Made by a program: the position numbers and the translations under genes | Notes under the pieces: generated by a model | The model's database searches: none | What the model was told of the DNA's origin: nothing | What the model saw: the letters and a program-made list of their open reading frames with translations, nothing else | Shown: positions 13,860 through 35,208 of the stretch, piece by piece | Numbering within the stretch: the stretch's first letter is position 1 | Layout of the letters: each line of letters starts with the position of its first letter | Assembly: GCF_900141815.1 (NCBI RefSeq) | Contig: NZ_FQYR01000003.1 | Coordinates: forward strand, 558,001-622,000 | Length of the DNA: 64,000 bases | Direction: 5' to 3' | DNA from: Rubritalea squalenifaciens DSM 18772 | Lineage (GTDB): Bacteria; Verrucomicrobiota; Verrucomicrobiia; Verrucomicrobiales; Akkermansiaceae

Positions 13860-14621
13860 TTAGGCAAGTCCTTCTTTAGCAGCGGCTAGAGCGTAATCGC
13901 GGTTCAGTTTAGCGATGTTGTCTGCGCTGATTTCTTTCGGGCAAACGGCTTCGCACTCGTACTGGTTGGTGCAGTTGCCGAAGCCTTCCTCGTCCATCTG
14001 GCGTACCATGGCGAGAGCGCGTTTGTCTTTCTCTGGCTGACCTTGTGGGAGCTTGTTGAGGTGGGAAACTTTTGCGGAAACGAAGAGCATAGCACTTGCG
14101 TTCTTACAGGCTGCTACACAGGCGCCGCAACCAATGCATGCAGCGGCGTCGAATGCTTCGTCAGCCAGACGCTTTTCAACAGGCATGGAGTTTGCATCTG
14201 GAGCTGAACCAGTGCGTACGTCAATGAAGCCGCCTGCAGCAATGATGCGGTCAAAGGCTCCGCGGTCAGTAACCAAGTCTTTAACGACAGGGAATGCTTT
14301 GGCGCGGAATGGCTCAATCCAGATGGTGTCACCATCATTAAATTTACGCATGTGAAGCTGGCAAGTGGTGATGCCGCGCTCTTTGGAGTGTGGAATGCCA
14401 TTAATGGTCAATGAGCACATGCCACAAATGCCTTCACGGCAGTCGTGATCGAAGTGAATTGGGTTGCCGCCATCTTCGATGATGCGCTCGTTAACGATGT
14501 CGAGCATTTCCAAGAAGGAAGCTTCCTGAGGAATGTCTTTGGCATCGTAGGTTTCGATGTGTCCCTCGTCATTGGCATTCTTTTGACGCCAGACTTTGAG
14601 TGTGAGATTGAGGTTGGCCAT
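13860..14621 (-). CDS. sdhB: succinate dehydrogenase / fumarate reductase iron-sulfur subunit
   Basis: 253 residues. It passes electrons between the flavoprotein and the membrane quinone site. Cys61, Cys66, Cys69 and Cys87 (in CREGICGMC and TTCQLHM) hold the 2Fe-2S cluster. Cys162/165/168/172 ([11 protein letters not shown]) and Cys217/223/227 ([12 protein letters not shown]) hold the 4Fe-4S and 3Fe-4S clusters. The length and sequence fit the Bacteroidetes-type (type B) enzymes. Unusually, neither sdhA nor sdhC is next to it: secA lies upstream and a terminator downstream. It may be transcribed from its own promoter in the 75-base gap or together with secA. Confidence 0.95.
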
Positions 14622-14696
14622 AGCTATTGGTGATAGGATAGGAGAGAAATTTGTTTTGAAAACAGCAAAATCAAACTGATAGAGAGCTGTCTGGGC

Positions 14697-17600
14697 TTAT
14701 TGTTCGGCGCCGCAGCAATCCTTGAGTTTTTTACCGGATCCGCATGGACATGGAGCGTTTTTGCCTGTTGGTTTGAGCTCGATTGGCTTGCGTTTAGCAA
14801 GCTGTACCTTGACCGGTTTGTCCTTCTTCTTAAGTGGTTGACCTGCAACCTGAGCGGAGGTGAGGACCTGTGCCAGATTCTCGTTTGAGAATGAAGGTTG
14901 TGGCTCGTCGCCACCTACGAGATCTTGAGGGAGGCTCTGAAGAAGCTGCTCAAACTGATCCAGGGAAGATGTGGAGCGGAAGAGATTGCCTAAAGCGTCC
15001 TCCTTGATGCTGCCCATCAGCGTTTGGAAGAGGCTGTATGCTTCATTCTTGTACTCAATCAGAGGGTCCTTTTGGCCTTGAGCACGGAGGTGAACACCTT
15101 CACGGAGAGCATCCATGTTGTAGAGGTGTTCCTGCCAGCGCTTATCGATTGCGGTAAGGATGATCTGGCGCTCAAGATGATCCAGATAAGCTGGGGATTC
15201 ATCTTTTACTTTGAGTTCGTATGCCTCACGAACTTCCTTGATGAGCCAGTCTGAAGTTTCTTCAGCTGTTTTCTCTTCAAGTTGAGCTTCTTCCTTGGTC
15301 AGGCCAAGTGGGAAAGTAGTGTTGATCCAGTTGAGTAGCTCAAGGAGGTCAGGGGATCCTTCGTCGCGATTCTCGTAGTAGGAGAAGACGGTGTCAGGAA
15401 TGACTTCCTCGATCACTTCGTCGATGAGTTCGCGTGGGTCTTCTGCTGAGAGGGCGTCATTACGGTAGCCGTAGACAACTTCACGCTGCATGTTCATGAC
15501 GTCATCGAAGTCCAGAACACGTTTACGCCACTGGTAGTCGCGCTGCTCGACGCGTTTCTGAGCGGTTTCGATGGAGCGGTTGAGCCACTTATGCTCAAGA
15601 GCTTCACCTTCTTCCATGCCGAAGCGCTCCATCATGGTGGTCATGCGGTCAGCGGCTGCGAAGTTGCGCATCAGGTCATCTTCAAAGGAGATGTAGAACT
15701 GTGATTTACCAGGGTCGCCCTGACGTGCGCATCGTCCGCGAAGCTGGCGGTCAACACGGCGTGATGGGTAGCGTTCACAACCAATCACGAAGAGGCCGCC
15801 CAGTTCTGGTACGCCTTCACCCAGCTTGATGTCAGTACCACGTCCAGCCATGTTAGTGGAGACGGTGACGGCTCCTTTCTTGCCAGCACGAGCAATGATT
15901 TCCGCTTCCTGTTCGTGGAACTTAGCGTTCAGCACAGAGTGTGGGATTTTGGCACGCTTGAGCATGCGGGAGAGAGTCTCGGATGCGTCCACGGAGGCTG
16001 TACCTACGAGAACGGGCTGGCCATTAGCGTGAGACTCGGAAATTTTCTTCACGACCGCATTGTACTTCTCACGTCGCGTTTTGAAGACTTGGTCGTTCTC
16101 GTCATCACGTTGGTTCGGGCGATTGGTAGGGATCGGGAGAACATCCAGGTTGTAGATGTCATGGAATTCCGCTGCTTCTGTCTCGGCAGTACCAGTCATG
16201 CCACCGAGCTTTTCATAGAGACGGAAGTAGTTCTGAATCGTGATGGTGGCGAATGTTTGTGTCTCGCGCTCCACAGTGACACCCTCTTTCGCTTCTACAG
16301 CTTGGTGTAGGCCATCTGACCAACGGCGGCCTTCCATCTTGCGGCCTGTCTGCTCGTCAACGATGACAACCTTGTTGTCTTCAACAACGTATTCAACGTC
16401 TTTTTCGTAAATACAGTAAGCTTTGAGGAGCTGGGTGATGGAATGCATCTTCTGACCTTGGTGGTCAAGGCGAGTCTGAAGGATCTCTTTCTTCTCTGCC
16501 TTGTCTTCGTCGCTCAGCTCAAGGTTGGCGTCGATTTCAGCGTACTCTTCAGCTAGGTCGGGCAAGACAAAGGACTCTGAGTCATTAGGGTCCAAGAAGT
16601 TGCGACCCATATCCATGAGGTCCGCATCGTGAGATTTCTCATCGATGGTGTAGTAGAGCTCTTCCTTGATGGCGTAGAGATCTTTCTTCTGGGCATCCTG
16701 ATACATGTCCAGCTCGGTCTTTTCGATCAGGCGGCGGGTATCAGGCTCCTGCATGAAGCGCATCAACTGCTTGTTGCGTGGTTGACCAAGCTTGATTTTA
16801 AAGAGGGATCGGCCGGCGTGTTCCTCATCACCTTCTTCGAGAGCTTTTTTGGCTTCTTCAGCAAGCTCGTTACAGAGGACGTTCTGCTTTTTGACCAGGC
16901 TCTCAATCATGCCTTTGAACTGACCGTATTGCTCAGTATTGGAAATGGTAGAAGGTCCGGAGATGATGAGTGGGGTACGAGCTTCGTCGATGAGAATGGA
17001 GTCAACCTCATCAATAATCGCGAAGTAGTGACCGCGTTGTACTTGCTCGTCACGAGAGTTCGCCATGCCGTTATCACGAAGGTAGTCAAAGCCAAATTCA
17101 GCATTGGTACCGTAGGTGATGTCGCACTGGTATTGTTCGCGACGGAACTGTGGCGGCTGCTGGCTTTGGATACAGCCAACTGTCAGACCAAGATATCTGT
17201 AGAGGGAGCCCATCCAGTCAGAGTCACGCATGGCGAGGTAGTCGTTCACGGTGACGACGTGTACGCCAAGACCTGTAAGCGCATTAAGGAATACGGGAAG
17301 GGTACCCACGAGGGTTTTACCTTCACCAGTTTGCATCTCAGAAATCATCCCGTTGTGGAGCGCAATACCACCGACGAGCTGTACGTCGAAGTGAACCATG
17401 TTCCACTCCATTTCGTTGTCAGTTACATTGATGGTGCGGCCACACATACGGCGGGCAGCATTCTTTGCTACAGCATAGGCTTCAGGAAGGATCTCATCGA
17501 GGTACTTGGCTCTGAGTTCCGGGAAATCATCTTCAATGTCTGCAAAAGCTTTTTTAGCGGACTCGATAGCTGCCGGTGTGGCTTCTACTTTTGGCAGTGA

Positions 17601-28936: not shown

Positions 28937-28995
28937 GTGGCGTTTATCTGTGCTCAAAGTCTTGATCGGCGGGCATTGTAGGAGTATTGGTGGGT

Positions 28996-30174
28996 ATGAT
29001 CTATTTGGATTCCAATGCGACCACTCAAGTGCATCCAGAAGTGCTGGAGGCGATGCTGCCTTATCTGACGGACCAGTGCTATAATCCGTCCAGTGGCTAT
29101 CGTGCAGGGAAGAAGGTCAAGGAGGCAATAGAGGAAGCAAGGGTTCAGATGGCGCAGCTTATCAACGCGGAACCTGATGAGATCTACTTCACTGGTTGCG
29201 GGACAGAATCCAATAATGCGGTTCTACTCTCGCTGGCTAAGATGGCGGGTGAGAATAAGAGGATTGTGACCAGTGCCATTGAGCATAGTGCTATTTTGAG
29301 AGTCTGTGAGGAATTGGAGCGTGAAGGCTTCCTCGTGGAGCGCGTAGGTGTGGACTCTGAGGGGAGACTCGACCTCGATGCCTGGAAGACTGCGGTGTCT
29401 AAGGGGGACGTCTGTATGGCGACACTTATGTGGGCCAATAACGAAACCGGGGTGATCCAGCCTATTGCAGAAGCCTATAAAGCGGCCAATGATGCTGGGG
29501 TGCCATTCCATACTGATGCGATTCAGGCTGTGGGGAAGGCGCATGTGGATGTGAAGGAGGTGCCTGTCGATTTTCTTTCCATTTCTGGCCACAAGTTCCA
29601 CGCACCGAAAGGTGTGGGCGCTCTGTACATTCGTCAGGGGGTTGGTTTCGAACCCTTGCTTCGAGGCGGCGGACAAGAGAAGGGGAAGCGCAGTGGGACT
29701 GAGAATGTGGCGTCCATCATCGGCATGGGGACGGCTGCAGAATTGATGCGCTCACGATTGGAGATGGACTGTCACGATTGCGTCGGGGCGCTGAGAGATC
29801 ATCTTGAGCACCGTCTGCTGACAGAGCTCGATGGAGTGCAGATTAATGGCTCCATGGAGCATCGCACCAAGAACACGTCTCATCTTTCCTTTGAGGGCTG
29901 CGAGGCGGCAGGTCTACTGATTCTGCTCGATGAGTACGGGGTGGCCTGCTCTGCGGGGAGTGCCTGCATGACAGGGAAACAAAAGCCAAGTCACGTGCAG
30001 AAAGCAATGGGCTTTGATGACGCCAGAGCTAAGAGCAGCCTGCGTATCTCGTTCTCGATTCTTACGACTAAAGATGAGACGGACAAGGCTGTCGAGGCCA
30101 TCAAGAAGGCTGTCGGCAAGCTCCGCAGTGTGCAGGGTGCTGGCGGTGTGGGGCCTGTGGTGGTATACACCTAG
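28996..30174 (+). CDS. cysteine desulfurase (NifS/IscS family)
   Basis: 392 residues from the ATG at 28996; GTG at 28990 and TTG at 28987 are alternatives, and a GGAG at 28981-28984 sits closer to those. PLP Lys200 is in SISGHKFHAPKG. The active-site loop has Cys324 in CSAGSACMTG. The YLDSNATT start, GTESNNA (about 69-75), SAIEHSAI (about 93-100) and MWANNETG (about 145-152) blocks are typical. It takes sulfur from cysteine for Fe-S clusters or thiolation; relatives can also act on selenocysteine. No iscU, suf or thiI gene is adjacent, so the acceptor is not shown by context. Confidence 0.93.
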   Translation: MIYLDSNATTQVHPEVLEAMLPYLTDQCYNPSSGYRAGKKVKEAIEEARVQMAQLINAEPDEIYFTGCGTESNNAVLLSLAKMAGENKRIVTSAIEHSAILRVCEELEREGFLVERVGVDSEGRLDLDAWKTAVSKGDVCMATLMWANNETGVIQPIAEAYKAANDAGVPFHTDAIQAVGKAHVDVKEVPVDFLSISGHKFHAPKGVGALYIRQGVGFEPLLRGGGQEKGKRSGTENVASIIGMGTAAELMRSRLEMDCHDCVGALRDHLEHRLLTELDGVQINGSMEHRTKNTSHLSFEGCEAAGLLILLDEYGVACSAGSACMTGKQKPSHVQKAMGFDDARAKSSLRISFSILTTKDETDKAVEAIKKAVGKLRSVQGAGGVGPVVVYT

Positions 30175-30235: not shown

Positions 30236-31069
30236 ATGACGAATAAACATCCAGATCTTCCGAGCGGGCATGCTTCTGCTGTCCAGCGAGCGTGTGTCCT
30301 CTTGCGTGAAGGGCAAACGATTGACTATGTCAGCAGGAAGGTGGGTATGAGCCGTTATCATTTCCAGAGAGTATTTAAAGAGACTCTGGGCTGTACACCG
30401 GGAGCCTATGTGAAGAGTTGCCGTGCGGATAAGCTCAGGGAGAGGTTATCAGAGAGTGACAGCGTTACAGACGCTATCTATGCGTCGGGTTACGGGGCTA
30501 GTTCCCGGTTCTATGAAGAAGCGAATGAGATATTGGGGATGGCTGCTAATCGCTACCGAAAAGGGGGAGAAGGTGAGGTCATCCGTTTCGCTGTAGGAGA
30601 GTGCTCGCTAGGAGCAGTTTTGGTGGCCTCATCTGAAAAAGGTATCTGTGCTTTATTCCTCGGTGACGACCCTCAGGAGTTGGTGAATGATTTGGAAAAA
30701 CGATTCGGAAAAGCGGTGCTTTTAGGGGGTGAAAAAGACTATGAAGAAATCGTCGCGAAGGTGGTAGGATTCATCGAATCACCGAGTCAGAAATTTGATT
30801 TGCCTCTGGATTTGAGAGGGAGTGTTTTTCAGATGAAAGTTTGGAAAGCTCTGGCTGGGATCAAGCATGGAGAGACGGTAAGCTATGCCGAACTGGCCCA
30901 GAGAGTGGGGATGCCCAAAGCAACCCGGGCGGTAGCTAGTGCTTGTGGAGCGAATCCTGTCTCAGTCGTCATTCCCTGTCACCGGGTTGTTAGGGCGGAT
31001 GGGTCTTTATCTGGTTACCGCTGGGGGGTGGAGCGGAAGAAGAGATTGCTAGATAGAGAGCGTCGTTGA
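30236..31069 (+). CDS. AraC-type HTH fused to O6-methylguanine-DNA methyltransferase (Ada-like)
   Basis: 277 residues. Residues about 10-107 form an AraC-family helix-turn-helix domain (MSRYHFQRVFKETLGCTPGAYV; ASGYGASSRFYEEANEILG). Residues about 115-277 form the methyltransferase: PCHRVV with acceptor Cys248, followed by SGYRWGVERKKRLL. The Zn-dependent N-terminal Ada domain, which in E. coli Ada senses methylphosphotriesters through Cys38, is absent, so this is the two-thirds form. It repairs O6-alkylguanine in DNA and may activate its own operon, though what it would sense is unclear. One base separates its stop from the AlkB start. Confidence 0.93.
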   Translation: MTNKHPDLPSGHASAVQRACVLLREGQTIDYVSRKVGMSRYHFQRVFKETLGCTPGAYVKSCRADKLRERLSESDSVTDAIYASGYGASSRFYEEANEILGMAANRYRKGGEGEVIRFAVGECSLGAVLVASSEKGICALFLGDDPQELVNDLEKRFGKAVLLGGEKDYEEIVAKVVGFIESPSQKFDLPLDLRGSVFQMKVWKALAGIKHGETVSYAELAQRVGMPKATRAVASACGANPVSVVIPCHRVVRADGSLSGYRWGVERKKRLLDRERR

Positions 31070-31070
31070 G

Positions 31071-31661
31071 ATGGACCTTTTTGGCTATGACCCGGCTGCG
31101 AATCTACTTCCTTGTGATGGGGAGGCTTATTATCACGGGCCTATCTTTGAGGGCGCCTATTTTGGCCAGTTGATGAGGGAGACCGAGTGGCGCCAAGATG
31201 AGGCCGTCATCTATGGTAAACGTATCCTTACGGCACGTAAGGTAGCATGGTGTGGTGACAAGCGTTATCGCTATCGTTATTCAGGCACTGTGAAGATTGC
31301 GCAGCCATGGTCTCCCGGGCTCAGTCAGTTGCGTGATCGGGTGGGTGCAGTCTTGGGGGCACATTTCAATTCTTGCTTACTCAATCTCTATGAAGATGGC
31401 AGTCAGGGGATGGCTTGGCACAGTGATGATGAGACGATGCTTAGGAGGCACGGGGTGATTGCATCTGTCAGTTTTGGAGCGGAACGTAGATTTTTGTTCA
31501 AGCACAAGAAGAGCGGGGAGAAGGTCGAATTGATGTTAGAGGATGGCAGTCTTTTAGTGATGAAAGGCACGACTCAGGATCACTGGCTACACAGCATTCC
31601 CAAGATGGCTCGAGTGAAAGGCCCTAGGATTAACCTTACCTTCCGACAAATCTTAGAATGA
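31071..31661 (+). CDS. AlkB-like Fe(II)/2-oxoglutarate-dependent DNA dealkylase
   Basis: 196 residues, the size of the ALKBH2/3-like bacterial AlkB group. Iron ligands are His117 and Asp119 (WHSDDE) and His174 (HWLHSIP). The 2-oxoglutarate-binding arginines fit Arg186 and Arg192 (RINLTFRQ). Family function is oxidative removal of methyl groups from 1-methyladenine and 3-methylcytosine in DNA. It begins one base after the stop of the AraC-MGMT gene, so alkylation reversal by two chemistries is encoded as one unit. No terminator is obvious in the following intergenic region. Confidence 0.93.
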   Translation: MDLFGYDPAANLLPCDGEAYYHGPIFEGAYFGQLMRETEWRQDEAVIYGKRILTARKVAWCGDKRYRYRYSGTVKIAQPWSPGLSQLRDRVGAVLGAHFNSCLLNLYEDGSQGMAWHSDDETMLRRHGVIASVSFGAERRFLFKHKKSGEKVELMLEDGSLLVMKGTTQDHWLHSIPKMARVKGPRINLTFRQILE

Positions 31662-33028: not shown

Positions 33029-33493
33029 ATGAAGGACGGATACAACATCGACTCAGAGATGGAGAATGCATGCTACCGCCTGGCGAGTATCATGGATGAT
33101 CTTGAGGAGCATTGGCACTTTAGCAAGGTGACCGAGTGGGGGCTGGATGATGAAGCTGGATTGATCCACTGGACTTTACCAAATGGTAAGCAGGTTTCTG
33201 CGGCTTGCCAGGTGATGGGTACCTATGACCTTGGTACCGGATCATTCCTGTGGGCCTGGGGGAATGAGTCCATCGATAGCAATTTGAAGGAGGATGCCCA
33301 GCGTGTGCACGATTTCGGGCAACAGAACGGCGTCGATTTCCTGACCTTCCGAAAATTGGATTGTGCTGAGGACGATGTGTGGGACCTCATTGCGCTGGCA
33401 TCACAGATTTGCGATAGTCGTGGTGCTTATTGTGGGGAGATGGATGGTGTGCTGATTTACGTAAGCTTCGGAGATATTAAAGTAGTCAGTTGA
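33029..33493 (+). CDS. small protein of unknown function (DUF6882-like)
   Basis: 154 residues, no signal peptide or membrane segment, acidic. The block GTGSFLWAWGNESIDSNLKE (about 69-88) resembles the LWAWxNxS motif I associate with DUF6882 proteins; this assignment is from memory. The C-terminal half contains a predicted helix (EDDVWDLIALASQIC) and strands. Its stop codon overlaps a TTG that is a possible start of the next gene, so the two are probably translated from one message. Function unknown. Confidence 0.72.
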   Translation: MKDGYNIDSEMENACYRLASIMDDLEEHWHFSKVTEWGLDDEAGLIHWTLPNGKQVSAACQVMGTYDLGTGSFLWAWGNESIDSNLKEDAQRVHDFGQQNGVDFLTFRKLDCAEDDVWDLIALASQICDSRGAYCGEMDGVLIYVSFGDIKVVS

Positions 33494-33495
33494 AC

Positions 33496-34218
33496 ATGAA
33501 GGGATACGCGCTATTTGATTTGGACCAGACCATTGTGCCTTGGGATACTCAGTTGCTGTTCTGTAATTTTGTACTCAAAAAGGAGCCTTTGCGTCGCTTG
33601 CATGTTTTGGGGTTTCTCCCGTTTTTGCCGTTCAATAAGTTGATCGGCACAGAAGGGATGAAGAGGGTGTTTTTAAATTACCTCTATGGCTTAGATCAGT
33701 CTGTCCTGGATGCTTATGCTAAGGAGTTCGTTGATGAATTGATGGAGGGTGGCCTCTACGATGAGATCGTTGATGAGGTGAAGCGCCAGAAGTCGGAAGG
33801 GCGATTGACTATTCTTAATTCTGCTAGCCCGGAAATCTGGGTCAAATATTTGGGGCCGGCACTGGGTTTCGATCATTGGTATGGAACTCGTGTAGTCATC
33901 AATGGGAAGGTTGATCTCTTCCCGGATATTTACGGCGGTAATAACAAAGGGGCCGTCAAGCTGGGACGTATGAAGAAACATTTCCCGGAGGGCTGGAGTG
34001 AGGGGGATGTTTTGCCCAATAGCTGGGGCTACTCTGATAGTCACGCGGATATCCCGATGCTGGATATCTGCGAGCATAACGTAATGGTTCATCCTACCAG
34101 CAAGCTATTAGAATATGGCCAGGGCAAAGGGTGGGAGGTAAGAACGCCTAAACGTCCTACTGCTAACAGGACTCAATTTGGTATTGCTTGTTTCAAGCAG
34201 ATGCTCGGGGTCTATTAA
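33496..34218 (+). CDS. HAD-IB family phosphatase (SerB/PSPase-like)
   Basis: 240 residues from the ATG at 33496; a TTG at 33490, overlapping the upstream stop codon, would add two residues. Motif I is FDLDQTIVPWDTQ (first Asp nucleophile, second Asp acid/base). Motif II Ser is in LNSASPEIWVKYLGPALGFD, and motif III/IV is GYSDSHADIPML. The core order and the FD(L)DxTI start are those of HAD-IB enzymes such as phosphoserine and glycerol phosphatases. Residues needed for catalysis are present. The substrate cannot be read from the sequence; no serine genes are adjacent. Confidence 0.88.
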   Translation: MKGYALFDLDQTIVPWDTQLLFCNFVLKKEPLRRLHVLGFLPFLPFNKLIGTEGMKRVFLNYLYGLDQSVLDAYAKEFVDELMEGGLYDEIVDEVKRQKSEGRLTILNSASPEIWVKYLGPALGFDHWYGTRVVINGKVDLFPDIYGGNNKGAVKLGRMKKHFPEGWSEGDVLPNSWGYSDSHADIPMLDICEHNVMVHPTSKLLEYGQGKGWEVRTPKRPTANRTQFGIACFKQMLGVY

Positions 34219-34275: not shown

Positions 34276-34629
34276 TTACTTCGCGGTCACTTCTACAACA
34301 ACAAACTCTTCAGCTTTGGGACCTAAGGACTGAATAGCCATTTCTTTGGTGAAATCACCATCGCTTATTATGGTGATAGTCTGGGCGTCTTTGTTGGCGC
34401 GATCGACTTCAATCGATTTCACCCCGGTGATAGTTTCGAATGCCGCACGGACACTCTTTTCACAGCCGCCTCAGACAACGCCCGTCATGGAGACGGTATA
34501 AGTCTTGCCTTCAGCTGTAGCCTCCTGAGAGGCTTCTGAGCTTGTAGTGCTTGTTTCAGCTTTCTTCTCACACGCGACAAAGCCTAGGGTCATTGCCGCA
34601 GCAAGCATTGGTAATAGTGTATATTTCAT
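34276..34629 (-). CDS. candidate selenoprotein: HMA-domain lipoprotein with in-frame UGA (Sec53)
   Basis: Read through one TGA (34471-34473), the frame runs 118 codons from ATG 34629 to TAA 34276 (ATG 34632 is also possible). Residues 1-20 are a lipoprotein signal ending GFVAC (Cys20); about 21-41 is a Ser/Thr/Glu linker; about 43-117 is a heavy-metal-associated (HMA) domain: TYTVSMTGVV, then UGA, then GGCEKSVRAAFETITGVKSI, followed by strands and helices normal for the ~70-residue beta-alpha-beta-beta-alpha-beta fold. The UGA replaces the first Cys of the metal-binding CxxC, giving U53-G-G-C56. A stem-loop matching bacterial SECIS rules follows the codon. It is 75 bases downstream of ruvC on the same strand. 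A nonsense mutation of a Cys codon is the alternative, but nothing else in the frame is damaged. A Sec-Cys pair would suit soft-metal (Hg, Cu) binding or redox work outside the inner membrane. Confidence 0.78.
34438..34456 (-). promoter_or_regulatory. putative bacterial SECIS element
   Basis: In the mRNA, bases 15-21 after the UGA (GAGUGUC) pair with bases 27-33 (GGCAUUC) as seven consecutive pairs, two of them G-U. The 5-base apical loop is CGUGC, with G at its second position, 23 bases after the UGA. The known bSECIS rule is a small loop with G among its first two bases about 16-37 bases downstream of the UGA, which SelB binds. The match is by hand folding only. Confidence 0.65.
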
Positions 34630-34704
34630 CATGCTACTGGTTTGAGTTGCATGGCTAACATCGCACACATTGACGTGAGTGTCTAATTGTGTGGCGATTA
34701 GGCT

Positions 34705-35208
34705 TTATACACGGCTAGATTGGAGCAAGGAGGCCTTGGCGGGGTCTGAGGCAGATAGGTGTGCAATTGCTATGGCGATCGCGTCAGCGGCGTCGTGAGG
34801 CGGTGTTTCAGATAATCCTAACAAAGCCCTGACCATAAAGGCAACTTGAGCTTTATCCGCGTTACCATTTCCAACGACGGCTTTTTTGACTTTCTTGGGG
34901 GCGTACTCGTAGATTTCGAGCCCGTGATCGGCGGCTGCTATCAAAGCCGCCGCCCTGGCTGCGCCCATGCTGATGGCCGTGCGAACAGACTGCACGAAGA
35001 TGATTCCCTCGACGGCGACCACGTCAGGCTCGTACTGGGTGATCAAATTAGCCAGTCCAGTCCTGACGGCGGAGAGTGCTCCGGATTGGGGAATCTTGGC
35101 GGGGATAGAGATGACCCCGTAGTCAATCGCACGTTGCTTGCTGTGATCGCCTTCGATCACGGCGTACCCTGTATTCCTGACAGCTGGGTCAATAGAGAGG
35201 ACACGCAT
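34705..35208 (-). CDS. ruvC: Holliday junction resolvase RuvC
   Basis: 167 residues. Cuts Holliday junctions together with RuvAB during recombination repair. The acidic catalytic residues are Asp7 (MRVLSIDPA), Glu67 (VAVEGIIF), Asp139 and Asp142 (PPHDAADAIAIAIAH). The YAPKKVKKAVVGNGNADKAQV block (about 102-122) is also typical. It follows the DEAD-box helicase gene by 33 bases on the same strand; ruvA and ruvB are not in the window. Confidence 0.96.
   Translation of the reverse strand: MRVLSIDPAVRNTGYAVIEGDHSKQRAIDYGVISIPAKIPQSGALSAVRTGLANLITQYEPDVVAVEGIIFVQSVRTAISMGAARAAALIAAADHGLEIYEYAPKKVKKAVVGNGNADKAQVAFMVRALLGLSETPPHDAADAIAIAIAHLSASDPAKASLLQSSRV

Follow-up and report, generated by a model that had tools for sequence, protein, structure and literature searches.

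An in-frame UGA codon in a heavy-metal-associated domain gene of Rubritalea squalenifaciens: a probable exported selenoprotein with relatives across the Verrucomicrobiales

A gene interrupted by a single TGA codon in Rubritalea squalenifaciens DSM 18772 is very likely a genuine selenoprotein gene encoding an exported heavy-metal-associated (HMA) protein, a joint claim in which selenocysteine (Sec) insertion and export are inferred. The gene, here called Sec-HMA, lies in a 64 kb stretch of contig NZ_FQYR01000003.1 that was analysed as a whole and is referred to as the window. The selenoprotein reading rests on the presence of the Sec machinery, the exchange of Cys and TGA at one codon, a covarying SECIS-type hairpin and an association with selA. 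Sequence evidence strongly supports the gene itself, a UGA lying in frame at a position of Cys exchange, the downstream hairpin, the predicted fold and the presence of Sec machinery. Actual Sec insertion, export, lipid attachment and soft-metal binding are inferred, with no data on the product, selenium labelling or expression.

The interrupted gene and its predicted product

The initial annotation gave no strand for the interrupted gene, which was found to lie on the minus strand (Table 1); no frame of comparable quality was found on the plus strand at this locus. With TGA translated as Sec, the protein reads MMKYTLLPMLAAAMTLGFVAC and continues directly with EKKAETSTTSSEASQEATAEGKTYTVSMTGVVUGGCEKSVRAAFETITGVKSIEVDRANKDAQTITIISDGDFTKEMAIQSLGPKAEEFVVVEVTAK, followed by TAA. 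The TGA stands in for the first Cys of a CxxC motif and is the only one in frame between the signal peptide and the stop. Three earlier claims held on translation and alignment, namely that the TGA falls exactly at the first Cys of the metal-binding motif (U-G-G-C), that the frame is otherwise open to TAA, and that calling TGA as a stop leaves a stub of 52–65 residues, the longest call without recoding being a 65-aa stub at 34471-34668. The upstream neighbour, ruvC (34705-35208), is on the same strand, and the gene on the other side, for a HAD-type hydrolase (33490-34218), is on the opposite strand. No consensus promoter or terminator was found for the Sec-HMA gene.

Table 1. Positions of features of the Sec-HMA gene in the window
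Feature	Position	Strand	Details and basis
Sec-HMA CDS	34276..34632	minus	ATG at 34632 or 34629, one in-frame TGA; translation and homologue alignments
Signal peptide ending in lipobox-like GFVAC	34570..34632	minus	By eye, no signal-peptide program; homologues
Lipobox Cys codon	34572-34570	minus	Sequence
HMA-type domain	34282..34506	minus	Pfam PF00403 (30 bits), AlphaFold, Foldseek
UGA Sec codon, first residue of U-G-G-C	34471..34473	minus	63 distinct family members with TGA, 30 with TGY
TGT, second Cys codon of UxxC	34462..34464	minus	Sequence
SECIS apical hairpin GAGUGUC-CGUGC-GGCAUUC, 7 pairs	34438..34456	minus	Comparative tests and covariance model
TAA stop of the CDS	34278-34276	minus	

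Elsewhere in the window, positions 30236-31661 hold a gene for an Ada-like O6-methylguanine methyltransferase with an AraC-type HTH, with a gene for an AlkB-like dioxygenase directly after it. These are probably an ordinary alkylation-repair pair.

The claim of a complete HMA domain needs some qualification. The Pfam HMA model (PF00403) scored 30.2 bits against a cut-off of 24.8, with the match limited to the first 39 of 62 positions, while AlphaFold, run with 32 family members, predicted the full beta-alpha-beta-beta-alpha-beta domain (strands at 42-49, 70-76, 83-89 and 110-116, helices at 54-65 and 95-107) with a pLDDT of about 85–95 per block and low confidence for the signal peptide and linker. 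Foldseek matched the model to HMA domains and to MerP, ATX1, CopZ and ZntA. Sec was placed immediately ahead of the first helix, in the HMA metal loop. The PF00403 score and the ferredoxin-like fold satisfy the criteria for HMA membership, and the CxxC loop is present in the form UxxC. For the proposed lipoprotein with lipobox GFVAC, the motif is present, with an unusual Phe at −3; most homologues lack a lipobox and carry an ordinary signal peptide of the Ala-x-Ala type. An exported HMA protein is thus supported by the signal peptide or lipobox and the predicted fold, with export and lipid attachment both inferred.

Evidence for selenocysteine decoding

The genome (4.32 Mb, 97% complete) was found to contain all four components sought, selA (507 bits), selB (300 bits), selD (378 bits) and a tRNA-Sec scoring 50.8 bits, over its cut-off, and named tRNA-SeC(tca) by ARAGORN, with anticodon TCA. 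The selD gene has an in-frame TGA of its own within MASCGGUASK, the CGGU of which is the classic, known Sec site of the enzyme. The presence of selA, selB, tRNA-Sec and a Sec-type selD means that the organism almost certainly decodes UGA as Sec. A lack of Sec machinery, one of the refuting outcomes listed in the initial annotation, is thereby excluded.

Homologues were found in 63 of the 143 related genomes searched, many with exactly one in-frame TGA. The TGA fell at a single shared codon, within MTGVTU(G/A/N)GC or near variants of it, where the remaining homologues encode Cys; this satisfies the criterion for a bacterial selenoprotein that UGA align to Cys in homologues. In total, 63 distinct Sec-form sequences (that of the window included) and 30 distinct Cys-form sequences were collected from the Verrucomicrobiales; because the collecting script accepted only sequences whose frame was open on both sides of the motif, members with a second nearby stop could not be recovered. 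The earlier argument that the position of the TGA is beyond chance held, and the refuting outcome named in the initial annotation, that this strain alone carries TGA, was not borne out.

Among 387 genomes of the order, selA was present in 57 of the 60 with Sec forms and in 3 of the 65 with Cys forms only. The three Sec-form genomes without selA are MAGs with a completeness of about 90%, 59% and 53%. The counts do not cover the weakest-scoring forms, and the Fisher p of 5e-28 is inflated, as the test ignores shared ancestry; only about four changes between Sec and Cys were needed on the family tree, at least two of them on supported branches. The window protein is divergent, with no more than 48% identity to any relative over the domain, and its position on a long branch is unsure. 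One Cys form (L022, at G025:C16:32640-32972) still has a SECIS-like loop, CGTGG, and selA was not detected in its genome. This loop looks like a relic of a Sec ancestor. A recent Sec-to-Cys conversion is likely here, and the case hints at a route of Sec loss.

The evidence for the hairpin is comparative and comes from its conservation and covariation, since folding of the window sequence by itself was not significant. Folded alone in stretches of 44–61 nt, the window hairpin was no more stable than shuffled sequences. In the window, the hairpin begins 14 nt past the UGA and its loop, CGUGC, 21 nt past it. All 59 distinct 45-base Sec sequences likewise had the stem 14 nt after the UGA with 5–7 of 7 standard pairs, and the loop N-GU-NN stood at +21 in every Sec form. 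Sec forms averaged 6.08 of 7 stem pairs, and Cys forms, which as a group lack the loop, averaged 2.57. Synonymous recoding of the Sec forms reduced the mean to 4.32 pairs (sd 0.11, maximum 4.64, n=200) and weakened the mean hairpin energy from −5.37 to −1.17 kcal/mol. The protein sequence therefore does not account for the hairpin, as recoding costs pairs and most of the stability. Both partners had changed at 4 of the 7 pairs, among them columns 21/33, where U-A and A-U occur in place of C-G, and columns 24/30, with a compensatory U-A in place of C-G. Covariation was stronger than in any of 500 shuffles or any slid control. A leave-one-out covariance model, from which the window was excluded, scored the window site at 50.1 bits (E 6.8e-15), compared with 8.6 bits for the next best site in the 64 kb and no more than 13 bits for the Cys relatives searched.

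Published criteria for bacterial SECIS elements are a loop of 3–9 nt, an upper stem of 4–16 bp, a G in loop position 1–2, a distance of 16–37 nt from the UGA and an MFE of −7.5 kcal/mol or lower (PMC13188914). The window hairpin met these with a 5-nt loop, 7 bp, a G at position 2 and 21 nt. Its MFE was −8.0 kcal/mol for 37 nt with the outer pairs and −5.9 for the 19-nt apical part, the energy limit being reached only when the outer pairs are counted. An Rfam search returned nothing at the hairpin site, which was not counted against a SECIS.

Two alternatives to Sec decoding bear directly on these results. The first, a pseudogene created by a nonsense mutation or a sequencing error in this strain, has nothing in its favour beyond the ordinary role of TGA as a stop. 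It is all but ruled out, since 63 distinct sequences share the TGA at that codon, the hairpin covaries and the downstream frame is intact. The second, reading of UGA as Trp or Cys through a variant code or a suppressor, can be dismissed with the same confidence, as no support for it was found, the aligned residue is Cys and not Trp, the Sec system is complete with a Sec-type selD, and the hairpin is specific to TGA forms.

Putative function and genome context

In the mechanism proposed, SelB with Sec-tRNA would bind the hairpin just downstream of the UGA and the ribosome would insert Sec, as in other bacterial selenoproteins. The predicted product of ~117 residues would start with a (lipo)protein signal peptide, joined through a short linker to a single HMA domain with a Sec-Gly-Gly-Cys metal loop. 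With its selenolate-thiolate pair it may act, in the manner of MerP, as a scavenger or metallochaperone in the periplasm or on the membrane surface, binding a soft metal ion, for instance Hg(II), Cu(I), Ag(I) or Cd(II). We lean towards such soft-metal binding at the cell envelope, by inference and without an assay; against it stand the lack of a partner conserved across genera and of a mer operon. The mercury- or copper-binding or redox role suggested earlier remains plausible and inferred only. No mer operon was found in the organism's own genome, nor a credible MerT, the best PF02411 match being interrupted and scoring 15.6 bits against a cut-off of 32.9. The same genome encodes a second exported-looking HMA protein (L214, at G000:C3:480906-481082), a Cys form whose N-terminal region is rich in Cys and Lys.

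An envelope redox selenoprotein remains possible, in which Sec and Cys would form a selenenylsulfide and the protein, instead of carrying metal, would serve as a small oxidoreductase or peroxide/disulfide exchanger. In its favour, UxxC is a frequent redox motif in prokaryotic selenoproteins and a 2026 review expects most uncharacterised selenoproteins to be redox proteins (PMC13188914). A protein of the same genus (L154), with Sec in two HMA-like domains that have lost the second Cys, also appears ill-suited to two-ligand metal binding. Against it, the fold is HMA and not thioredoxin-like by AlphaFold and Foldseek, Sec occupies a known metal ligand position, and no redox partner gene recurs nearby.

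Clustering of neighbouring genes gave no general rule and no fixed partner conserved across genera. In genus g17 (L115, L119-L122, L125, L127, L133-L134, L164, L167-L168), mnmH, which encodes tRNA 2-selenouridine synthase, and a gene for a NifS-like cysteine desulfurase lie divergently to the Sec-HMA gene, with selA 4–10 kb away in some members. In genus g32 (L135, L137-L139, L141, L147) it follows, on the same strand, a gene for a ZnuA-like metal-binding protein. Neighbours outside g17 were priA, genes for a ZnuA-like protein and a lipase/ceramidase, or unrelated genes. A NifS-like gene in the window (28987-30174) was considered as a linked partner and rejected, being several genes away. The g17 arrangement, including the nearby selA, would fit a role in selenium metabolism, for example in uptake, with the protein binding selenite, or selenium in reduced form, on the cell surface. 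This is unlikely, as the mnmH/NifS arrangement is restricted to g17 and genomes lacking selA still keep Cys forms. The neighbouring genes leave the choice of function undecided, and we rank the MerP-like metal role above a redox protein and both above selenium uptake.

Distribution, known relatives and significance

Among 388 genomes sampled from the phylum, the strong matches were in the order Verrucomicrobiales. A 46-base Sec-plus-SECIS pattern matched 43 stretches in 84,980 species genomes, all in Verrucomicrobia records and mostly in Verrucomicrobiales or Akkermansiaceae MAGs; the pattern was derived from the family itself, so more distant kin are not excluded. No relative was found in viral contigs, phages or plasmids; the viral scan used Cys patterns and would be biased toward other stretches of the protein.

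The window protein was not accepted by any NCBIfam 2026 model at its cut-off, a comparison that covers this protein only; the rest of the family hit those metal-binding models too. MerP (TIGR02052; PDB 1osd, which was matched) shares the exported single HMA domain and two-chalcogen metal loop, but the score of 29.6 bits is far under the equivalog cut-off of 92.55, Sec replaces the first Cys, and no credible companion MerT is present. The UxxU metal-binding selenoprotein (NF041115) is HMA-like as well, but its model is named for two Sec whereas the window protein has one, in UxxC (23.2 bits against 95). The MerT/CopZ fusion-like heavy metal transport selenoprotein (NF045683) also combines Sec with a heavy-metal domain but is fused to a MerT-like part (17.1 bits against 375). 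CopZ/ATX1 copper chaperones share the fold and loop position but are cytoplasmic and contain only Cys; the CopZ model gave 27 bits, with a cut-off of 85. The cation-transporting P-type ATPase selenoprotein has UxxC in a metal-transport protein, a large membrane ATPase unlike the small exported protein described here (PMC13188914).

A 'Mercuric transport protein MerP' selenoprotein was listed, without a motif, for 2 Global Ocean Sampling sequences in a 2008 table (PMC2398784). It was named as a Sec-containing MerP, but the text gives no motif, sequence or lineage and it is absent from the 2026 table, so its identity with the present family is unsettled. That table, of 119 families, includes the UxxU metal-binding, MerT-type and P-type ATPase selenoproteins and no small exported UxxC HMA protein (PMC13188914). 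The initial view that a secreted Sec-Cys metal-binding protein would be unusual must therefore be qualified: with Sec MerP-like and UxxU proteins already known (PMC2398784, PMC13188914), such a protein is not unprecedented, and the small exported UxxC form adds a variant to the known Sec-HMA/MerP-type proteins.

Further Sec-HMA forms were observed. A second exported subfamily, SG(L/M)xUxxxC (L221-L241, also L151-L153 and L155-L158), comprises about 22 distinct sequences from Akkermansiaceae-type relatives, several of them of the window's genus, and has its own strongly conserved SECIS-like hairpin, GUGC(A/G)G(U/G)CUGCAC or a close variant. The same-genus lipoprotein L154 (G004:C79, near 14610-14897, minus strand) has an in-frame TGA followed by a hairpin in each of its two domains, with the second motif Cys missing in both. 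Tandem two-domain proteins occur in two lineages, L024/L208 (G104:C79) and L100 (G558:C333)/L199; each domain carries a single Sec and its own SECIS-type hairpin.

On a bolder reading, which we offer tentatively and consider to fall just short of being favoured, the Verrucomicrobiales evolved an exported Sec-HMA repertoire, made up of UxxC and UxxxC proteins, tandem proteins with two Sec and forms with Sec but no Cys, that uses selenolate as an extracytoplasmic metal ligand. If true, this would be a selenium-based metal-handling system not previously described as such.

Thioredoxin-like redox proteins make up the majority of known selenoproteins (PMC13188914). In the present family, an exported protein with an HMA fold has Sec in place of a metal ligand, in an order barely touched on in the selenoprotein literature searched. 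Sister genera with Cys and Sec versions provide matched natural proteins for comparing the metal affinity and redox properties of selenium and sulfur. Calling based on stop codons would truncate such genes, and envelope metal proteins are thus probably missing from annotations made in this way.
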